Positions 14,229 through 20,049 of a stretch of 49,445 bases of DNA are shown here, in pieces (position 1 is the stretch's first letter; each line of letters opens with the position of its first letter). The DNA is taken from assembly GCA_017472575.1 (NCBI GenBank), contig JAFUPX010000024.1, positions 1 through 49,445 of the forward strand, in the 5' to 3' direction. The stretch is from Clostridia bacterium. GTDB lineage: Bacteria; Bacillota; Clostridia; Oscillospirales; Acutalibacteraceae. A model generated the notes under the pieces. The model made no database searches, was not told where the DNA came from, and worked only from the letters and a program-made list of their open reading frames with translations. A program made the translations under genes and the position numbers.

Positions 14229-14248
14229 TTTGATCCTTCCATAAAAAT

Positions 14249-14290
14249 CACCCATCGGTTACAGTAATAAAATACCATAACCGATGGGTG
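14249..14290 (-). terminator. Intrinsic terminator after the UDG-like gene
   Basis: Thirteen-base arms CACCCATCGGTTA / TAACCGATGGGTG have a 16-nt loop and are followed on the minus strand by ATTTTTAT. The 69 bp between this hairpin and the UDG-like stop at 14360 contain nothing recognised. Confidence 0.8.
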
Positions 14291-14359
14291 AAAAAGGGGT
14301 TATCTATAAGATTGTAATTGTTCTCACGGTTATAACGATAATATATGTAAGAAAAGTTA

Positions 14360-15100
14360 TCATACAGGACAACAATTAGGGTAAAAAGAATTGCTTAAAT
14401 ACAATTTACTTAAAACATCAACATAATTTTCCACCCGATAACCGCCTCTGGCAGATGGGTGCCTTAGGCTGTATACCAAAAGAGGTTTCTTTAATTGTAT
14501 ATCAACTTTTTTGTGATCGATATTCGGTGCATAAGTGCAAAGTCCAATGTAATCTTTAGCCTTTCCGACATAAATCCCTGTTTTTATAGGCTCATTATTC
14601 TCACTTTTGTCTGTAAGACTCGGTAAATTATTAAAAACCAACCTTCCAAAGCAAACCACTATATCGATTTCATTCTTGTTTACAAAATTAAACAAAGCGT
14701 TATTTAGCATAATTCGATTCTCTTTGTTCTTTACATAGTTCTTTGCAGTGTTGTCCTTAACTCCACAAAGAACATCAATGTAGTTGCCAAAATAGACTTT
14801 ATCCCAAAATTCTTCCCTTTGCAATTCGGGATCTATTCCGAACGAACATACTATTTTATCAAAAAAACGATATTCTGGAATTCTACCGTTACCTTTTTTA
14901 TGGCTTTCAAGATAGCATTTTACTATATCTTCCGTTTTATATGATGCTGCTTTCTTTTTGAGTCTTTCATTAGCTTGTTCCTCTGTTTCATTCGGTTGAA
15001 GTTTCAAATCTTCATTGCCCCAATGATGTTATTTGCCTAAAATCAAAATTTTTGTTTTTTGGTCTTTGGCTTTTGAGCCAATAAACTCTCCGGGATGCAT
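14360..15100 (-). pseudogene. Uracil-DNA-glycosylase-superfamily-like gene with in-frame TAA
   Basis: From ATG 15100 (after AAGGAAGTGAG) the frame reads MHPGEFIGSKAKDQKTKILI then LGK, hits TAA at 15029-15031, and continues HHWGNEDLKLQPNE in the same frame for 215 more codons. The split KILILGx-x-HHWG motif, VYFGNYIDVL, VVCFGRLVFNNLP and the C-terminal YSLRHPSARGGY suggest a UDG-like fold (tentative). The stop falls in the N-terminal active-site motif. A TTG at 15007 could restart translation but would lose the HHWG part and has no clear ribosome site. It lies 27 bp after the WYL gene and is probably co-transcribed. It is either a pseudogene, a sequencing error or a read-through gene. Confidence 0.55.
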
Positions 15101-15127: not shown

Positions 15128-16180
15128 TTATTCTTCATAATTATTCAACGCCGCTGTTAAATCCGCTTTCATTTGCTCTGCAAGGGAAGCCGGCGATAAA
15201 ATTTTAATATGCAGGGCATACTGCATTGCCCATCGGCACATTGCCTGTTCGTTAACATTCACCCGAACGGTGACCTCCGTTTCATTTTCATCGGTAAAGA
15301 TTAAGTCTTTGCCGAACCAATCAAAAAGGTCGTTAAGCAGATACTTCTGTGCTGTAAATGTTACGGGTATGCTTTCTCCTGAAAACATATATAAATGCTC
15401 TGCCATATGCTTTGGCAAATTAAAACCGTTTTCAAGCCCCTTGACCTTATTCTGCGGTTTTACGGGGGTATCAAGAAGTTTGATATTCGCAATGCGGTCA
15501 AGACGGTAATTCGAAACATTGTCGTATTTATCGTAATTGCAAATAAGATAATATCTTCCGTTGGTGGCTGCAATCTGATAAGGGTTTATAATATATTCTT
15601 TCACGCTGCCGTCATCATTCATAGCGGGATGCATCTTTTTATCTACTTCAAAATGGTTATAGTTAAAAGAAACCTGCTTACCTTTTGCAATAGCCTCGTC
15701 AAGAATTTCAATGGTATAAAAAAGTTGGCGGTTATTCGGTGAATTATCAGGCAAGGTCTTTATATAGCGCACACGGGATTTGAAATACCGGTTCGAAAGC
15801 CCTTCGAGTTTGCCGACAAGTTCTTTACATTGACTGTATGGGATATGTTTTGAGAAAAGCAAGCCGTCAATAAGAAGTCTGAGTTCGCTGTCGGAAAAAT
15901 CCCTTTCGAGATAAAAGTCAGAAAGAATATAGCTTTCTTCAAGTTCGCCGTCTTTATTTGGTATCATACGGAGCGCTTCGCTAAAATTGATGTCATACCC
16001 AAACTCAATAAGGCTCTGAATATTTCGCTTTATGCTCTTTCTGTCGGCTACCATATCATATTCGGTTTTAAGAATTTCAACAATATCCTTTTGCGAAAGC
16101 CGATGCTCTGCATCGGTATACCTACGCAAAATATCAAGTATATTCATAATAAGTAATTTTTTCGGTTTTGCGGATTTCAT
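15128..16180 (-). CDS. WYL-domain transcriptional regulator
   Basis: The ~350-aa protein has an N-terminal helix-turn-helix (KLLIMNILDILRRYTDAEHR ... DIVEIL ... SIKRNIQSL). A central WYL domain follows (INPYQIAATNGRYYLICNYD, NYRLDRIANIKLLD) and then a WYL C-terminal extension. WYL proteins bind DNA and often sense nucleic-acid ligands; many accompany defence systems (family knowledge). ATG 16180 with TGGGTGAT just upstream is preferred over an upstream TTG. It lies downstream of the PolC-like and DnaB-like genes on the same strand, separated from them by a hairpin (16223-16258). Confidence 0.92.
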   Translation of the reverse strand: MKSAKPKKLLIMNILDILRRYTDAEHRLSQKDIVEILKTEYDMVADRKSIKRNIQSLIEFGYDINFSEALRMIPNKDGELEESYILSDFYLERDFSDSELRLLIDGLLFSKHIPYSQCKELVGKLEGLSNRYFKSRVRYIKTLPDNSPNNRQLFYTIEILDEAIAKGKQVSFNYNHFEVDKKMHPAMNDDGSVKEYIINPYQIAATNGRYYLICNYDKYDNVSNYRLDRIANIKLLDTPVKPQNKVKGLENGFNLPKHMAEHLYMFSGESIPVTFTAQKYLLNDLFDWFGKDLIFTDENETEVTVRVNVNEQAMCRWAMQYALHIKILSPASLAEQMKADLTAALNNYEE

Positions 16181-16222
16181 ATAATCACCCAATCCATTAT
16201 ATCATCTTTGATTATATATTAC

Positions 16223-16261: not shown

Positions 16262-17062
16262 TCATTCTATAAAGCTGTAAGTTTCGCCGTCAAACTTAAA
16301 CCGTATTGTTCCGAGTTCTCCGTTTTTATTTTTGCAGATTATGAGTTCAGTGTCAGGAATGCTGTCGTCTTGTTTTTCTGCAACGTCAAAATAACTATCT
16401 CTATGTAGTATCAAAACGCTATCGGCAAGTTTTGCAACAAGAGGGTAAACATCGTTTAAAGTTGGACGAAAACGATTTTCTTGCACTCTTTCAAGCCACA
16501 CACTGATAATTATAGGTATATTCAGACCTTTGCAGAGATTTCTGATAATCAAAAAATCCTTTTCAAAATCATGTGAAATTGCTTCAAAACCGTCAATTAA
16601 AACCATAGCCGGCTTTCTGTTAAAAGAGAGTATATTCTTTATGTTTTCACATGTTTCACTATAATCAATTACTGTTATTTTAAGCTGACTTATAATAGAG
16701 AGGGCGGCGTCCACTTTGTTTAACATATCAGAATCGTATATTTCATCAACTTCTTCTATATTAACGCTGCTAAGTTTTTGAATAAGACGCTCAACAATTC
16801 GGTAACTTGTAAATTCGTTTGTGAAATAAAAGATTTCACCTTCTGAAGTTATTGCCGAATTAAGAAGCAGATCCAACATAAACGTTGACTTGCCAATACC
16901 CTGCATTGATGCTATACACATAAGATATCCGCCATTTAAATTATTAATACCTATTATACTGTCAAGTTGTGCAAAACCCGTAGAAACAAGTCTCTCATCG
17001 GGCTTTTTTATATAGTTTTCCAGTGCGATTTCTTTGCATATTTCTTTTATACTTTTAATCAT
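16262..17062 (-). CDS. DnaB C-terminal-domain-like ATPase (short, no N-terminal domain)
   Basis: The 266-aa RecA-fold protein resembles only the motor domain of the replicative helicase DnaB. It opens with STGFAQLDSIIGINNLNGG (DnaB TGFxxLD entry). Walker A is MQGIGKST (53-60), the catalytic Glu is in TNEF (E83), Walker B is MVLIDGFE (D157), LADSVLILHRDSY matches the DnaB ADVVLFLHRD motif, and the end is CKNKNGELGTIRFKFDGETY. The DnaB N-terminal collar domain is absent; full DnaB is about 440-470 aa. No clear Shine-Dalgarno precedes the ATG, and it starts 15 bp after the PolC-like stop, suggesting coupling. It is probably a partner of that protein. Confidence 0.85.
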   Translation of the reverse strand: MIKSIKEICKEIALENYIKKPDERLVSTGFAQLDSIIGINNLNGGYLMCIASMQGIGKSTFMLDLLLNSAITSEGEIFYFTNEFTSYRIVERLIQKLSSVNIEEVDEIYDSDMLNKVDAALSIISQLKITVIDYSETCENIKNILSFNRKPAMVLIDGFEAISHDFEKDFLIIRNLCKGLNIPIIISVWLERVQENRFRPTLNDVYPLVAKLADSVLILHRDSYFDVAEKQDDSIPDTELIICKNKNGELGTIRFKFDGETYSFIE

Positions 17063-17077
17063 GGTAAATTCTGTTTA

Positions 17078-19801
17078 TTACAGCGGTATTCTGATATTTC
17101 CATTTTCGGGTATATAGTTATCAGGATCGGATTTTTCTATATCAGGCGGTAAAAAGTTAACTCCTCTGGAAATACACTCTTTTGCTGCAATCATAGCCGT
17201 GTATATATTACGGTATTCACATGAATCTTCGCCTTTAATGCTTTTCATTTTGTTTAAATGGTTATCGATTTCGGCTAAGCCTTCGGGTAAAACATTGAAA
17301 TTAAACTCATTTCGTTCAAAGTATACACTGAAATAAGCCGCATAAAATTCGGTAGGGTAATACAGTTTAAACCAAGCAAGACGCAAAGCATTTATTACAT
17401 GAGCTACAGCGTGAGCCTTGGGGAACATATATCTTATCTTCTGGCAAGAATCAAAGTACCAATCCCCAAAATGCTTTGTTATTTCTTTAAAACTTGCAAC
17501 CTCTTCGTCGCTTAGTCGTTTTTTTAACAAAAGGCCTTTTCGTATACATTCATCAAATTTATATGCGGTTGCTTTATCAACACCGTTCTTTATTAAATCA
17601 ATCATAATATCTGAGCCTAAGGCAATAAGCTCACTTAGAGAACGCTCTCCTAAGTCAATCAAATTTTCTGCATTATTTGTCCACACATCAGCGCCGTGGG
17701 CTAATCCATTGATTTTTACAAGATCGGTAAAGTTTTGAGGTTTTGTTTTGAGAAGTAAATCTCTCACAAAATCAGTACTGTATTCAGGCAGACAGAGTGT
17801 TCCTACAGAAATACCGTCAACATTTTCGGCAGTTATTCCAAGTGCACGTATATCGCTGAAAAGCTTATAGATTTCAGGATCTTTAATGTCTACATTAAGA
17901 GGAGAGATTCCCGTAAACTCCTCAAGCAATTTAAAAACATCAGGAACGCTGTGACCCAAAATATCAAGTTTTATTATGGTATCGTGTAAGTGATGAAAAT
18001 CGAAAACAGTTTTCTTATCTACCGTGAGTCGGATATTTCCTTCATAAAAATAGTAATCATCTATGGCAGAAAGGGCTGTAAAATCGTAAAAAACCTTATT
18101 TTTTGGTGCGATAAAAATTCCTGACGGATGCATACCACTATGGGTTTTAATGTTGCAAAGTTTTCCTATAAGATTATTTCTGTACTGAGGATCTGTTTTT
18201 TCGCCTGTAAGTTCTTCGTAAGTTCGAATATAGCATTCTGCAGTATGTGGCAAAATAGAATATATTGTACTTGCGTAGGCTACTCTTTTTTTCCCGAAAA
18301 ATGTTACAAGAAATTCAAATACCGCCGCTTGTACTGCAGGTGAAATATTTAAATTAATATCCGGCACTTTATCCCCGTGAAATCCCATAAATATTTCATA
18401 CGGAATATTGTGTCCGTCACACTTCATTGTAACAGCACATTCGGGACAGGATTTTTGCGGCAGATCAAATCCTGTATACACAGAGTAATCGGTTATAAAT
18501 TCTGTATGATGACAGTGGGGACATAAATAATGTGGCTCTAATGGGTTAACTTCGGTTATTCCCAAAATATATGCAACAAAAGAAGAGCCTACCATCCCCG
18601 GAGCAAAAGCATATTCACCTCGTTCTTTCAAGTATTTCACTACAAGATATGCCACCATATAATGTGAAGAAAAATTGTTGCTTATTATATGATGAAGTTC
18701 GGCATCAAGCCTTTCTTTTACAGTGTTGGGTAAAACACCGTTTTTTGCATACAACTCGTTTGCTTTTTCCCTACATAATCTATCTAAATCTTCATAATCA
18801 TACTTGTTTTTAAGAGGATAACCGTCTTCCTTAAACGGTATTATTTCTTTCACCATATCGGCAATAAGGTTTGTGTTTTTTATAACGATTTCAAAAGCTT
18901 TGTCTTCTCCAAGATATGAAAACTCTGATAACATCTCATTTGTGGTTCGAAAATATAATGGCGCTTGTTCTTCAAAATCGGCATATCCTTGATTTACCAT
19001 TAAAATCTTTCTTATAATACTATCTTCAGGTTCAATGAAATGCACATCACCGGTAGCTACAACCGGTTTTTTCAGTTTATCAGCAAGCACAACTACCATT
19101 TTATTAAAATCTTTTATTGCGTTAAAGTCTGTAACTCTTTTAAATCGGTTCTCTATTATATTTCCTTTTTTATCATATACATCGGGTTCAGCACTTTTAT
19201 TTATTATAAATTTGTTATTTTCAAGAGGTTGTATTTCAAAATAATCATAATAACTTGTAATTTTTTCAAGTTCCTTATCACTTTCACCTGAAATAATTGC
19301 TCGGTACAATTCTCCGCACTCACAGGCAGAGCCGATAATAAAATCCTTACGGTATTTGTCCAATGAAGAACGCTTAATAACAGGAGCTTTATTCCATTTT
19401 AAAAACAGTTCTGCTTCAGACATCATTTTATATAAGCTTTTTAGCCCCCTTTGATTTTTAACCAATACTATAAGGTGTGTTTTGCTGTTTACTATCTCTT
19501 TTTCGGTTAAATTTGAAATATCATTATCAACATCATTAATAAAATACAGCTCAACGCCATAGATAGGCTTGATATTTCCGCCTTCTTTTCGTATTCTTTT
19601 AACTGCATTATAAATTTCAGGATAGGCTCTAACTGACCCGTGGTCGGTGATGGCGATCGCCTTATGCCCGAATTTACAGGCTTGCATTATTATCTCATCG
19701 GCAGTCGCGGTACCGTCCTTAAAAGACATATTTGTGTGACAGTGCAGTTCTACCCTCTTTTCGCTCGCCTCATCCTTTCTTATTTTGTTAGAATAAGTCA
19801 T
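17078..19801 (-). CDS. PolC-like PHP protein with apparently inactive polymerase domain
   Basis: The 907-aa relative of DNA polymerase III PolC (usually about 1430 aa) is numbered here from the ATG. The PHP domain starts at once: LHCHT (H20, H22), ITDHG (D53, H54), GVEL (E84), H109, C160 and GDVH (D252, H254). The 3'-5' exonuclease normally inserted in PHP is replaced by about 20 residues. The palm/fingers and the zinc finger (C427, C430, C452, C455) follow. The catalytic DxD is PDINLN (D481, N483) where PolC has PDIDLN; D613 (KLDILGH) remains. The GSRGSVGSS loop is APGMVGSS, and the fingers Lys region is changed. The C-terminal helix-hairpin and clamp-binding end are missing. The start is ATG at 19801 with GGAG 8 nt upstream, not the overlapping GTG at 19810. 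Base use is visibly AT-richer than the flanks. Confidence 0.93.
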   Translation of the reverse strand: MTYSNKIRKDEASEKRVELHCHTNMSFKDGTATADEIIMQACKFGHKAIAITDHGSVRAYPEIYNAVKRIRKEGGNIKPIYGVELYFINDVDNDISNLTEKEIVNSKTHLIVLVKNQRGLKSLYKMMSEAELFLKWNKAPVIKRSSLDKYRKDFIIGSACECGELYRAIISGESDKELEKITSYYDYFEIQPLENNKFIINKSAEPDVYDKKGNIIENRFKRVTDFNAIKDFNKMVVVLADKLKKPVVATGDVHFIEPEDSIIRKILMVNQGYADFEEQAPLYFRTTNEMLSEFSYLGEDKAFEIVIKNTNLIADMVKEIIPFKEDGYPLKNKYDYEDLDRLCREKANELYAKNGVLPNTVKERLDAELHHIISNNFSSHYMVAYLVVKYLKERGEYAFAPGMVGSSFVAYILGITEVNPLEPHYLCPHCHHTEFITDYSVYTGFDLPQKSCPECAVTMKCDGHNIPYEIFMGFHGDKVPDINLNISPAVQAAVFEFLVTFFGKKRVAYASTIYSILPHTAECYIRTYEELTGEKTDPQYRNNLIGKLCNIKTHSGMHPSGIFIAPKNKVFYDFTALSAIDDYYFYEGNIRLTVDKKTVFDFHHLHDTIIKLDILGHSVPDVFKLLEEFTGISPLNVDIKDPEIYKLFSDIRALGITAENVDGISVGTLCLPEYSTDFVRDLLLKTKPQNFTDLVKINGLAHGADVWTNNAENLIDLGERSLSELIALGSDIMIDLIKNGVDKATAYKFDECIRKGLLLKKRLSDEEVASFKEITKHFGDWYFDSCQKIRYMFPKAHAVAHVINALRLAWFKLYYPTEFYAAYFSVYFERNEFNFNVLPEGLAEIDNHLNKMKSIKGEDSCEYRNIYTAMIAAKECISRGVNFLPPDIEKSDPDNYIPENGNIRIPL

Positions 19802-19962: not shown

Positions 19963-20049
19963 TGGTGCGGATAACAGGACTTGAACCTGCACCGAGTTGC
20001 CCCGACTAGAACCTGAATCTAGCGCGTCTGCCAATTCCGCCATATCCGC
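19963..20049 (-). tRNA. tRNA-Leu (anticodon CAG)
   Basis: The 87-nt minus-strand gene begins GCGGATATGGCGGAATTGGC and ends TATCCGCACCA with the CCA encoded. The anticodon stem CTAGA/TCTAG surrounds the loop TTCAGGT, giving anticodon CAG. The variable arm (GTCGGGGCAACTC) is long, as in class II tRNAs. The acceptor stem GCGGATA/TATCCGC is perfect. It borders the accessory block to its left. Confidence 0.96.

Follow-up and report, generated by a model that had tools for sequence, protein, structure and literature searches.

The 49,445-nucleotide stretch analysed here, referred to as the window, comes from a Clostridia bacterium of the family Acutalibacteraceae (contig JAFUPX010000024.1, assembly GCA_017472575.1) and carries a gene related to the DNA polymerase PolC (17078..19801, minus strand; all features of the window given below lie on this strand). 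Its frame runs from an ATG at 19801, which is preceded by a ribosome-site-like sequence (AAAAAAAGGAG), to a TAA ending at 17078 and comprises 907 codons with 0 internal stops, as a first-pass annotation of the sequence had described. The encoded protein of 907 residues consists of PHP, palm, thumb, fingers and zinc-finger parts, without the N-terminal domain (NTD) and OB domain, the exonuclease or the clamp-binding tail, and is a relative of PolC over its whole length according to Pfam, NCBIfam and structure alignment. It matches the NCBIfam model NF001688 (‘PolC-type DNA polymerase III’) with 881.6 bits at a cut-off of 873, scores below the cut-off of TIGR01405 (832.5 vs 1043.45) and aligns over residues 12-906 with the Geobacillus kaustophilus PolC structure (642 bits), so that the likeness to PolC from the PHP domain onward, noticed at first by eye, is borne out. 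The nearest PolC of the genus is 49% identical.

The host genome (1.2 Mb, 82% complete, 46 contigs) also encodes a canonical PolC (L002), with the motifs PDIDLN and GSRGSVGSS and the tail TNQISMF, as well as DnaE, and the window gene is therefore an extra copy. Comparison with L002 agrees with the earlier statement that both ends are missing: the window protein has neither the N-terminal/OB part, which takes up ~310-330 residues in L002, nor the 61-residue tail that ends in TNQISMF, and a search of it for a QLxLF-like motif found none. The exonuclease was correctly reported as absent, but its absence does not point to a new role, since L002 lacks it as well: at the place where two exonuclease-bearing PolCs carry 189 and 191 residues, L002 is without an insert. 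PolCs without an exonuclease have been described in Clostridia and Negativicutes and make up 6% of PolCs (Timinskas et al., PMC3919608, excerpt), and the uncut PolCs of the genus, among the matches listed, have open frames of ~1270-1310 residues. The missing exonuclease was thus rejected as a mark of the window copy; whether the paralog inherited this absence or lost the domain separately depends on where the tree is rooted.

Catalytic and metal sites of the PolC-like protein

Individual residues were compared with a reference set of 62 canonical PolCs (from the genus, the order and six named genome records), from which L057, the same gene as L002, and the contig-cut L041 had been left out before counting. 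In the PHP part (residues 12-262, 19016..19768; Pfam PHP, 5e-29), the ligand table has all nine metal ligands kept (H20, H22, D29, H54, E84, H109, C160, D252 and H254), which read HHDHEHCDH and agree at 9/9 positions with the signature HHDHEH[C/H]DH given for active PHP domains (PMC12926913, excerpt). The four zinc-finger cysteines (residues 427, 430, 452 and 455; 18437..18523) are also retained. Different is the state of the polymerase site: the second catalytic Asp, invariant in 62/62 canonical PolCs, is replaced by Asn483, encoded by AAT at 18353..18355, while the first and third (D481 and D613) are present, leaving the three-Asp set of PolC-type replicative polymerases (D401, D403 and D555 in Escherichia coli) one Asp short. 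The GS-motif loop (18581..18613) reads FAPGMVGSS in place of GSRGSVGSS, with all four of G399, S400, R401 and S403 altered, and TTGQHP has become HSGMHP, with changes at T554, T555 and Q557; each of these seven residues is again invariant in 62/62 canonical PolCs, and neither the GSRGS loop nor the TTGQHP stretch typical of PolC-type replicative polymerases is left. In addition, K519 (58/62 canonical PolCs) is replaced by His. The catalytic Asp residues are stated to be absolutely conserved across the whole C-family in the part of PMC3919608 consulted.

These residues correspond to what had been read from the letters at first pass, namely an Asn for the second catalytic Asp, a loop with its conserved Arg turned to Pro, an altered TGQHPGG region, and intact PHP ligands and zinc-finger cysteines. 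The summary of a lost polymerase and a kept PHP site is true of the window copy: of the columns invariant in PolC, it keeps 40/42 in the PHP domain compared with 31/46 in the fingers, the DxD and the GS loop taken together (Fisher p 0.001), the losses being directional and concentrated at the polymerase site. At the level of sequence, the view of 17078-19801 as a PolC relative with an altered polymerase site and an intact PHP domain is thereby confirmed. When the genome’s own PolC was let drift neutrally to 49% identity, 13-35 stops arose (200 runs), and with 0 stops in the window gene its intact frame is more than chance. The protein shares with the exonuclease-less PolCs of Clostridia (PMC3919608, excerpt) a PHP-palm-fingers-zinc finger body in which the exonuclease insert is missing, but differs from them in its Asn, its changed GSRGS and TTGQHP motifs, the lack of the NTD/OB part and clamp tail, and its occurrence beside a canonical PolC. 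It is thus well supported that the gene encodes a reduced PolC paralog without the replicase-specific ends, and that in the window copy the polymerase chemistry is partly lost and the PHP site, the zinc finger and the remainder of the body are retained.

Related paralogs within and beyond the genus

All counts of paralogs are lower bounds, as one of the searches took a maximum of two candidates per genome. Long paralogs are present in at least 5/70 genus genomes, namely in the window and at the loci L044 (737 aa), L108 (733 aa), L109 (818 aa) and L110 (475 aa, with a different N-terminus and no PHP domain). The L109 paralog (L109:6474-8930) has an N-terminal DnaG-type zinc finger (Pfam 1.2e-35) in-frame with a PolC-like protein of degraded PHP. 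Fragments occur in two further genus genomes (76 codons in G009, and at a contig end in G029). The second PolC matches in G018, G022, G002 and G005 proved to be contig-split canonical PolCs, a reading that leaves aside the second matches of G342 and G359. Outside the genus, at least three intact paralogs were found in other genera or families: L148 (818 aa) belongs to another genus of the same family, L147 (810 aa) to a different family and L146 (884 aa) to yet a further one, in a genome that also has the canonical PolC L149. The PolC-like gene L049 (G043, another family) is frameshifted. Two candidates for short paralogs were dismissed, L150 being canonical and L151 canonical and contig-cut. 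The short ends of L044, L108, L109 and L110 were not traced to recent premature stops: no PolC tail was seen by eye in the 120 codons past the stops, although in three of the four the search matches ran a few codons beyond them. A canonical PolC was seen in the paralog-bearing genomes of the window (L002), G149 (L149), G020 (L026) and G356 (L105), a reading that did not extend to G344, G331, G068, G487 and G043.

The sites kept differ between these proteins. Of the nine PHP ligands, the window copy keeps 9, L146 6, L147 5, L108 4, L148 3, L109 2 and L044 1. Of the eight intact long paralogs, six (L146, L147, L148, L108, L044 and L109) have all three catalytic Asp together with the loop Arg, with GSRGS additionally kept in L148, whereas L110 has lost both Asp of the DxD along with the PHP domain, and the DxD is also lost in the frameshifted L049. 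Since these six combine an unaltered Asp set and loop Arg with a loss of PHP ligands, neither the Asn nor the intact PHP site is a trait of the clade, and the window copy, with its whole PHP site and broken polymerase site, is the exception among the paralogs. The conservation of the Asn among homologues, which the first-pass annotation had left to be checked, is thus not found, and the homologues that keep these residues speak mostly against a general PHP role. What the set has in common is a reduced PolC body without the normal replicase ends, in island-type surroundings, and it is well supported that the window gene is accessory, patchily present and part of this wider, island-borne PolC-like set.

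Trees were built with 34 of the 62 canonical PolCs, to which L149 was added in the eight-paralog tree; the paralogs form long branches, and their grouping needs to be read with caution. When the three paralogs from outside the genus are included, the eight intact paralogs group together (support 100/96), and the five genus paralogs do so with 86/31 in the presence of the frameshifted L049 and with 100/100 and 98/99 in its absence. As the sole paralog in a tree, the window copy joins the genus PolC (99), whereas L108 alone, or L044 and L109 alone, do not. In tests on the eight-paralog tree, joining the genus PolC with the window copy (p-AU 0.06) or with the five genus paralogs (0.08) was unrejected and joining it with all eight was rejected (0.02), whereas in an earlier five-paralog tree the window copy with the genus PolC was rejected at 0.02. 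With long branches and such shifting results, either one duplication or several may lie behind the paralogs. Rough Nei-Gojobori estimates at high dS, made on pairs of relatives of the window copy, gave a dN/dS of 0.164 for L044 vs L109 (715 codons, dS 1.58; the main PolCs of these species give 0.060) and 0.112 for L147 vs L148 (807 codons, dS 2.47), which points to purifying selection on both pairs.

Neighbouring genes, island surroundings and mobility

The PolC-like gene is followed, after 15 nt, by the start of a gene for a stand-alone DnaB C-terminal-like ATPase of 266 aa without a DnaB N-terminus (16262..17062; Pfam DnaB_C, 1.6e-27). Aligned with two replicative DnaBs, this protein keeps the Arg finger, the catalytic Glu and the Lys and Asp of Walker A and Walker B, respectively, and does not keep the RESGSIEQD stretch of the replicative DnaBs. 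Next comes a transcription regulator with both the WYL and WCX domains of WYL-domain regulators (15128..16192; Pfam WYL 2.4e-11, WCX 7e-6; PADLOC WYL 1.8e-29), and the three genes form an operon-like block. Further downstream lie a gene for a 215-aa protein of no known family (14360..15007; no Pfam, PADLOC or PHROGs match) and, at the end of the minus-strand block, a terminator-like hairpin with a 19-bp stem (14248..14291), which came from a hairpin scan that found 4 such sites vs a mean of 4.0 in shuffles and has the longest stem of them. The 215-aa protein is uracil-DNA-glycosylase (UDG)-like by eye only, and has a relative at L085 5482-6126 (6e-48), close to another WYL gene; UDG-like genes common to the window and L044 were considered and rejected, as there was no alignment. 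A tRNA-Leu(CAG) gene (19963..20049), 161 nt upstream of the PolC-like gene, is a possible integration hot spot.

WYL genes are present in 5/9 paralog loci, being of the window’s kind in the window, L044 (the start only, 76% over 46 aa), L146 and L148 and of another kind in L110, and more distant WYL genes lie on the contigs of L109 (41%, ~9 kb off) and L108 (39%, ~25 kb off). Among the neighbours, PADLOC matched BnzB (3.6e-49) and PDC-M09A (1.1e-18) at L110, together with a dGTPase (6.6e-44) that may be housekeeping, and PDC-S26 (4e-64) at L044, where a Mob_Pre relaxase is also found; a homologue of the L044 PDC-S26 protein is encoded in L146 (5e-181). One protein is common to the L109 and L148 loci, DUF2779 recurs at L108, L109, L147 and L148, a metallophosphoesterase is found at L044, L108 and L109, and RtcB adjoins the PolC-like genes of L049 and L147. 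As a control, 1/10 window genes outside the block had a PADLOC match <1e-15 (an ABC-transporter ATPase), and none of 20 island query proteins was found in 13 canonical PolC loci (5-23 kb each).

The surroundings of related WYL genes were also considered, at eight loci with WYL relatives of >=50% identity (G009, G020, G353, G332, G049, G056 and two in G043; two short fragments were left out). PADLOC matches <1e-15 were obtained at 5/8 of these (PDC-S26; GmrSD-type HEC-06 and SoFic; dGTPase; a retron-type reverse transcriptase (RT); and a generic AAA protein), with one to three neighbours scanned each, one at G009 and none at G056 and one G043 locus. The WYL gene of G353 adjoins GmrSD and Fic, and that of G049 lies near the retron-type RT (~1 kb, other strand). 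Among BrxR-family WYL regulators, 48% are close to known defence systems (PMC9122601, excerpt). The block resembles such BrxR/WYL-regulated defence islands in having a WYL regulator beside variable cargo, but the cargo here is PolC-like and DnaB-like and belongs to no PADLOC model.

Mobility is suggested by the locus L048 of G009, where related ATPase and WYL genes stand after the 76-codon PolC-like remnant, beside a tRNA-Leu(CAG). Between the window and G009, dS is 0.77 for the ATPase and 0.6 for the WYL gene, compared with 1.13-2.69 for seven background pairs (PolC 2.40), and none of the other window ORFs (open reading frames) of >=150 aa was found in 20 kb at the G009 locus. The low dS, the same tRNA in both genomes and the absence of other window ORFs indicate that the ATPase-WYL pair is mobile.

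Several further arrangements were seen at these and related loci. At L147:3059-6742 and L049:6655-10403, in two genomes of one family, the RtcB-like RNA ligase gene stands directly at the PolC-like gene, on opposite sides. The PolC-like protein of L146:4124-6823 has an extra N-terminal ~120 residues, and its gene is preceded by the WYL gene and a 268-aa gene and followed by a 1183-aa ORF. At L142:1947-6371, a WYL gene is followed after a 3 nt gap by a GmrSD restriction gene and then a Fic gene. Metallophosphoesterase genes lie at L048:2270-3034, L044:1755-2489, L093:8790-9566, L142:548-1282, L144:5044-5811 and L109:2017-2733, the products of L048, L044 and L093 being 69-73% identical to each other. 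Beside the L093 gene, a stand-alone DnaB_C-like protein (L093:9573-10421) has lost the Walker A Lys and the catalytic Glu; no PolC-like gene was found at that locus.

Possible functions of the module

Our preferred reading, to which we give a probability of roughly 40%, is that the block is a mobile, WYL-linked island module built on a stripped PolC body and probably of a defence type. In the proposed model, the WYL protein would sense a nucleic-acid signal and control the block, a step suggested by the WYL proteins DriD and PafBC, which are activated by ssDNA (PMC12340889, excerpt). The PolC body and the ATPase would attach to replication forks that are foreign or stalled, or to the proteins of such forks, and interfere by occupying them; the effector in the window copy may be the PHP site, through cleavage of nucleotides or of the ends of DNA. 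In favour of this reading are the canonical PolC and DnaE in the same genome, the grouping of the eight intact paralogs, the frame without stops, the low dN/dS between relatives, the mobility of the ATPase-WYL pair, the WYL genes and defence-type neighbours at the paralog loci, the lack of the island query proteins at the 13 canonical PolC loci, the GmrSD, Fic and retron-type RT genes near related WYL genes, the DnaG zinc finger of L109 and the defence surroundings of BrxR-family regulators.

A number of observations weigh against this reading. With PADLOC 2.0.0, the PolC-like protein, the ATPase and the 215-aa protein matched 0 families and only the WYL regulator was matched; no match <1e-15 was obtained among the neighbours scanned at L108, L109 and L049, and as the scanned neighbours were hand-picked by eye, the contrast with the control set is no formal test. 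WYL regulators also serve in the control of DNA damage. The DnaB-like partner is seen at the window and at the G009 remnant locus only, and in G009 the PolC-like gene is down to 76 codons while the ATPase and WYL genes persist; the remnant has a dS of 2.29 (76 codons), not low like that of its neighbours, which does not agree with the block having been transferred whole in one recent event. Finally, the three catalytic Asp are present in most relatives, and L148 has GSRGS as well; a dead polymerase is therefore no defining feature of the group, and some of its members may synthesise DNA. This lowers the weight of a bolder idea, which we regard as doubtful: a new kind of WYL-regulated defence made from pared-down pieces of the replisome (the PolC body, the DnaB core and, in the case of one relative, the zinc finger of DnaG), which would recognise viral replication by replisome imitation and keep or lose its polymerase and PHP sites piecemeal as members shift between synthesis, cutting and blocking. 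If the defence reading were true, replisome imitation would be added to the known strategies.

The same retention of the Asp residues lowers the weight of what we see as the main rival, by analogy with ImuA-ImuB: an unlikely scheme of genome maintenance in which a RecA-fold ATPase and a dead polymerase, induced through WYL on ssDNA, would remodel the fork or aid the cell’s own PolC or DnaE after damage. ImuA and ImuB, which share a cassette, are homologous to RecA and to a Y-family polymerase but catalytically inactive (PMC3919608, excerpt), and the window resembles them in that a polymerase homologue with a broken site stands next to a RecA-fold ATPase and keeps its DNA-handling parts and zinc finger; activation of DriD and PafBC by ssDNA (PMC12340889, excerpt) would suit this scheme as well. 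In contrast to ImuA-ImuB-DnaE2, the protein belongs to the C-family and not the Y-family, the ATPase is of the DnaB_C and not the RecA type, a WYL regulator adjoins, and no DnaE2 or other third catalytic partner was recognised in the block; the clamp tail and a QLxLF-like motif are missing, the paralogs are patchy (at least 5/70 genus genomes), and their loci and the WYL loci have defence-type neighbours. Within the C-family, a PolC relative without polymerase chemistry in a selected, recurrent island lineage would be the counterpart to ImuB, and would offer a direct way to ask what a non-replicating replicase body does: block, sense or recruit. Improbable, in our view, is a drifting duplicate without present function whose intact frame is recent luck. 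The G009 remnant, the frameshifted gene of G043 (L049) and the loss of different sites in different paralogs would fit it, but 0 stops stand against 13-35 in the 200 neutral runs, dN/dS is low between relatives (0.164 and 0.112; no close intact orthologue of the window copy was found for a direct comparison), the losses are concentrated at the polymerase site (p 0.001), and the layout is operon-like with a ribosome-site-like sequence.

A PHP phosphoesterase or nuclease that binds DNA through the dead PolC body and has no link to defence, in line with the role put forward by the first-pass annotation, is quite improbable and may apply to the window copy only. There, the 9/9 ligands and 40/42 invariant PHP columns agree with it, and a subset of PolX proteins has the same pattern (PMC12926913, excerpt), whereas every other intact paralog is short of PHP ligands, with 1-6 of 9 left, or, in L110, of the whole domain. 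Bacterial PolX1 with an inactive polymerase site, as described in that source, is alike in keeping the PHP domain and losing polymerase chemistry, but belongs to the X-family, and among the relatives here loss of the PHP site and not of the polymerase is the rule. We consider it very unlikely that the relatives are accessory, low-processivity island polymerases and the window copy retains a weak or altered synthesis despite its Asn: the three Asp and loop Arg in 6/8 intact paralogs would allow this, but the window copy is altered in one of three Asp, in the GS motif and Arg, and in the TTGQ columns. There is similarly little chance that the block is the replication part of an integrated plasmid or phage. 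Its tRNA-side location, the Mob_Pre relaxase near L044 and the DnaB- and DnaG-like parts hint in this direction, but PDIDLN and GSRGS are intact in each of eight PolCs taken from records of viruses, phages or plasmids (stray bacterial DNA may be among them), and these PolCs fall outside the clade. A phage origin of the PolC-like gene itself was rejected, as 0/8 of these PolCs join the clade in the tree. In viral contigs, peptide-pattern scans of low sensitivity with P0001, P0002, P0003, P0004 and P0008 found no relative, the A1 scan returned four canonical PolCs, and no phage structural genes were recognised by eye in the block. Searches of the literature on inactive or second PolC copies, and on dead polymerases, WYL or PHP proteins in defence, found nothing describing such a protein or such a block among the records listed.

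Two minor observations concern PolC in related genomes. The genus genomes G013 (95% complete) and G357 (89%) have a DnaE-type match only and no PolC among the matches listed, which may reflect assembly gaps. At L054:2325-4175, at a contig end of G011, a terminase-like ORF continues in-frame into the PolC exonuclease/polymerase up to the end of the contig and is perhaps an assembly chimera.

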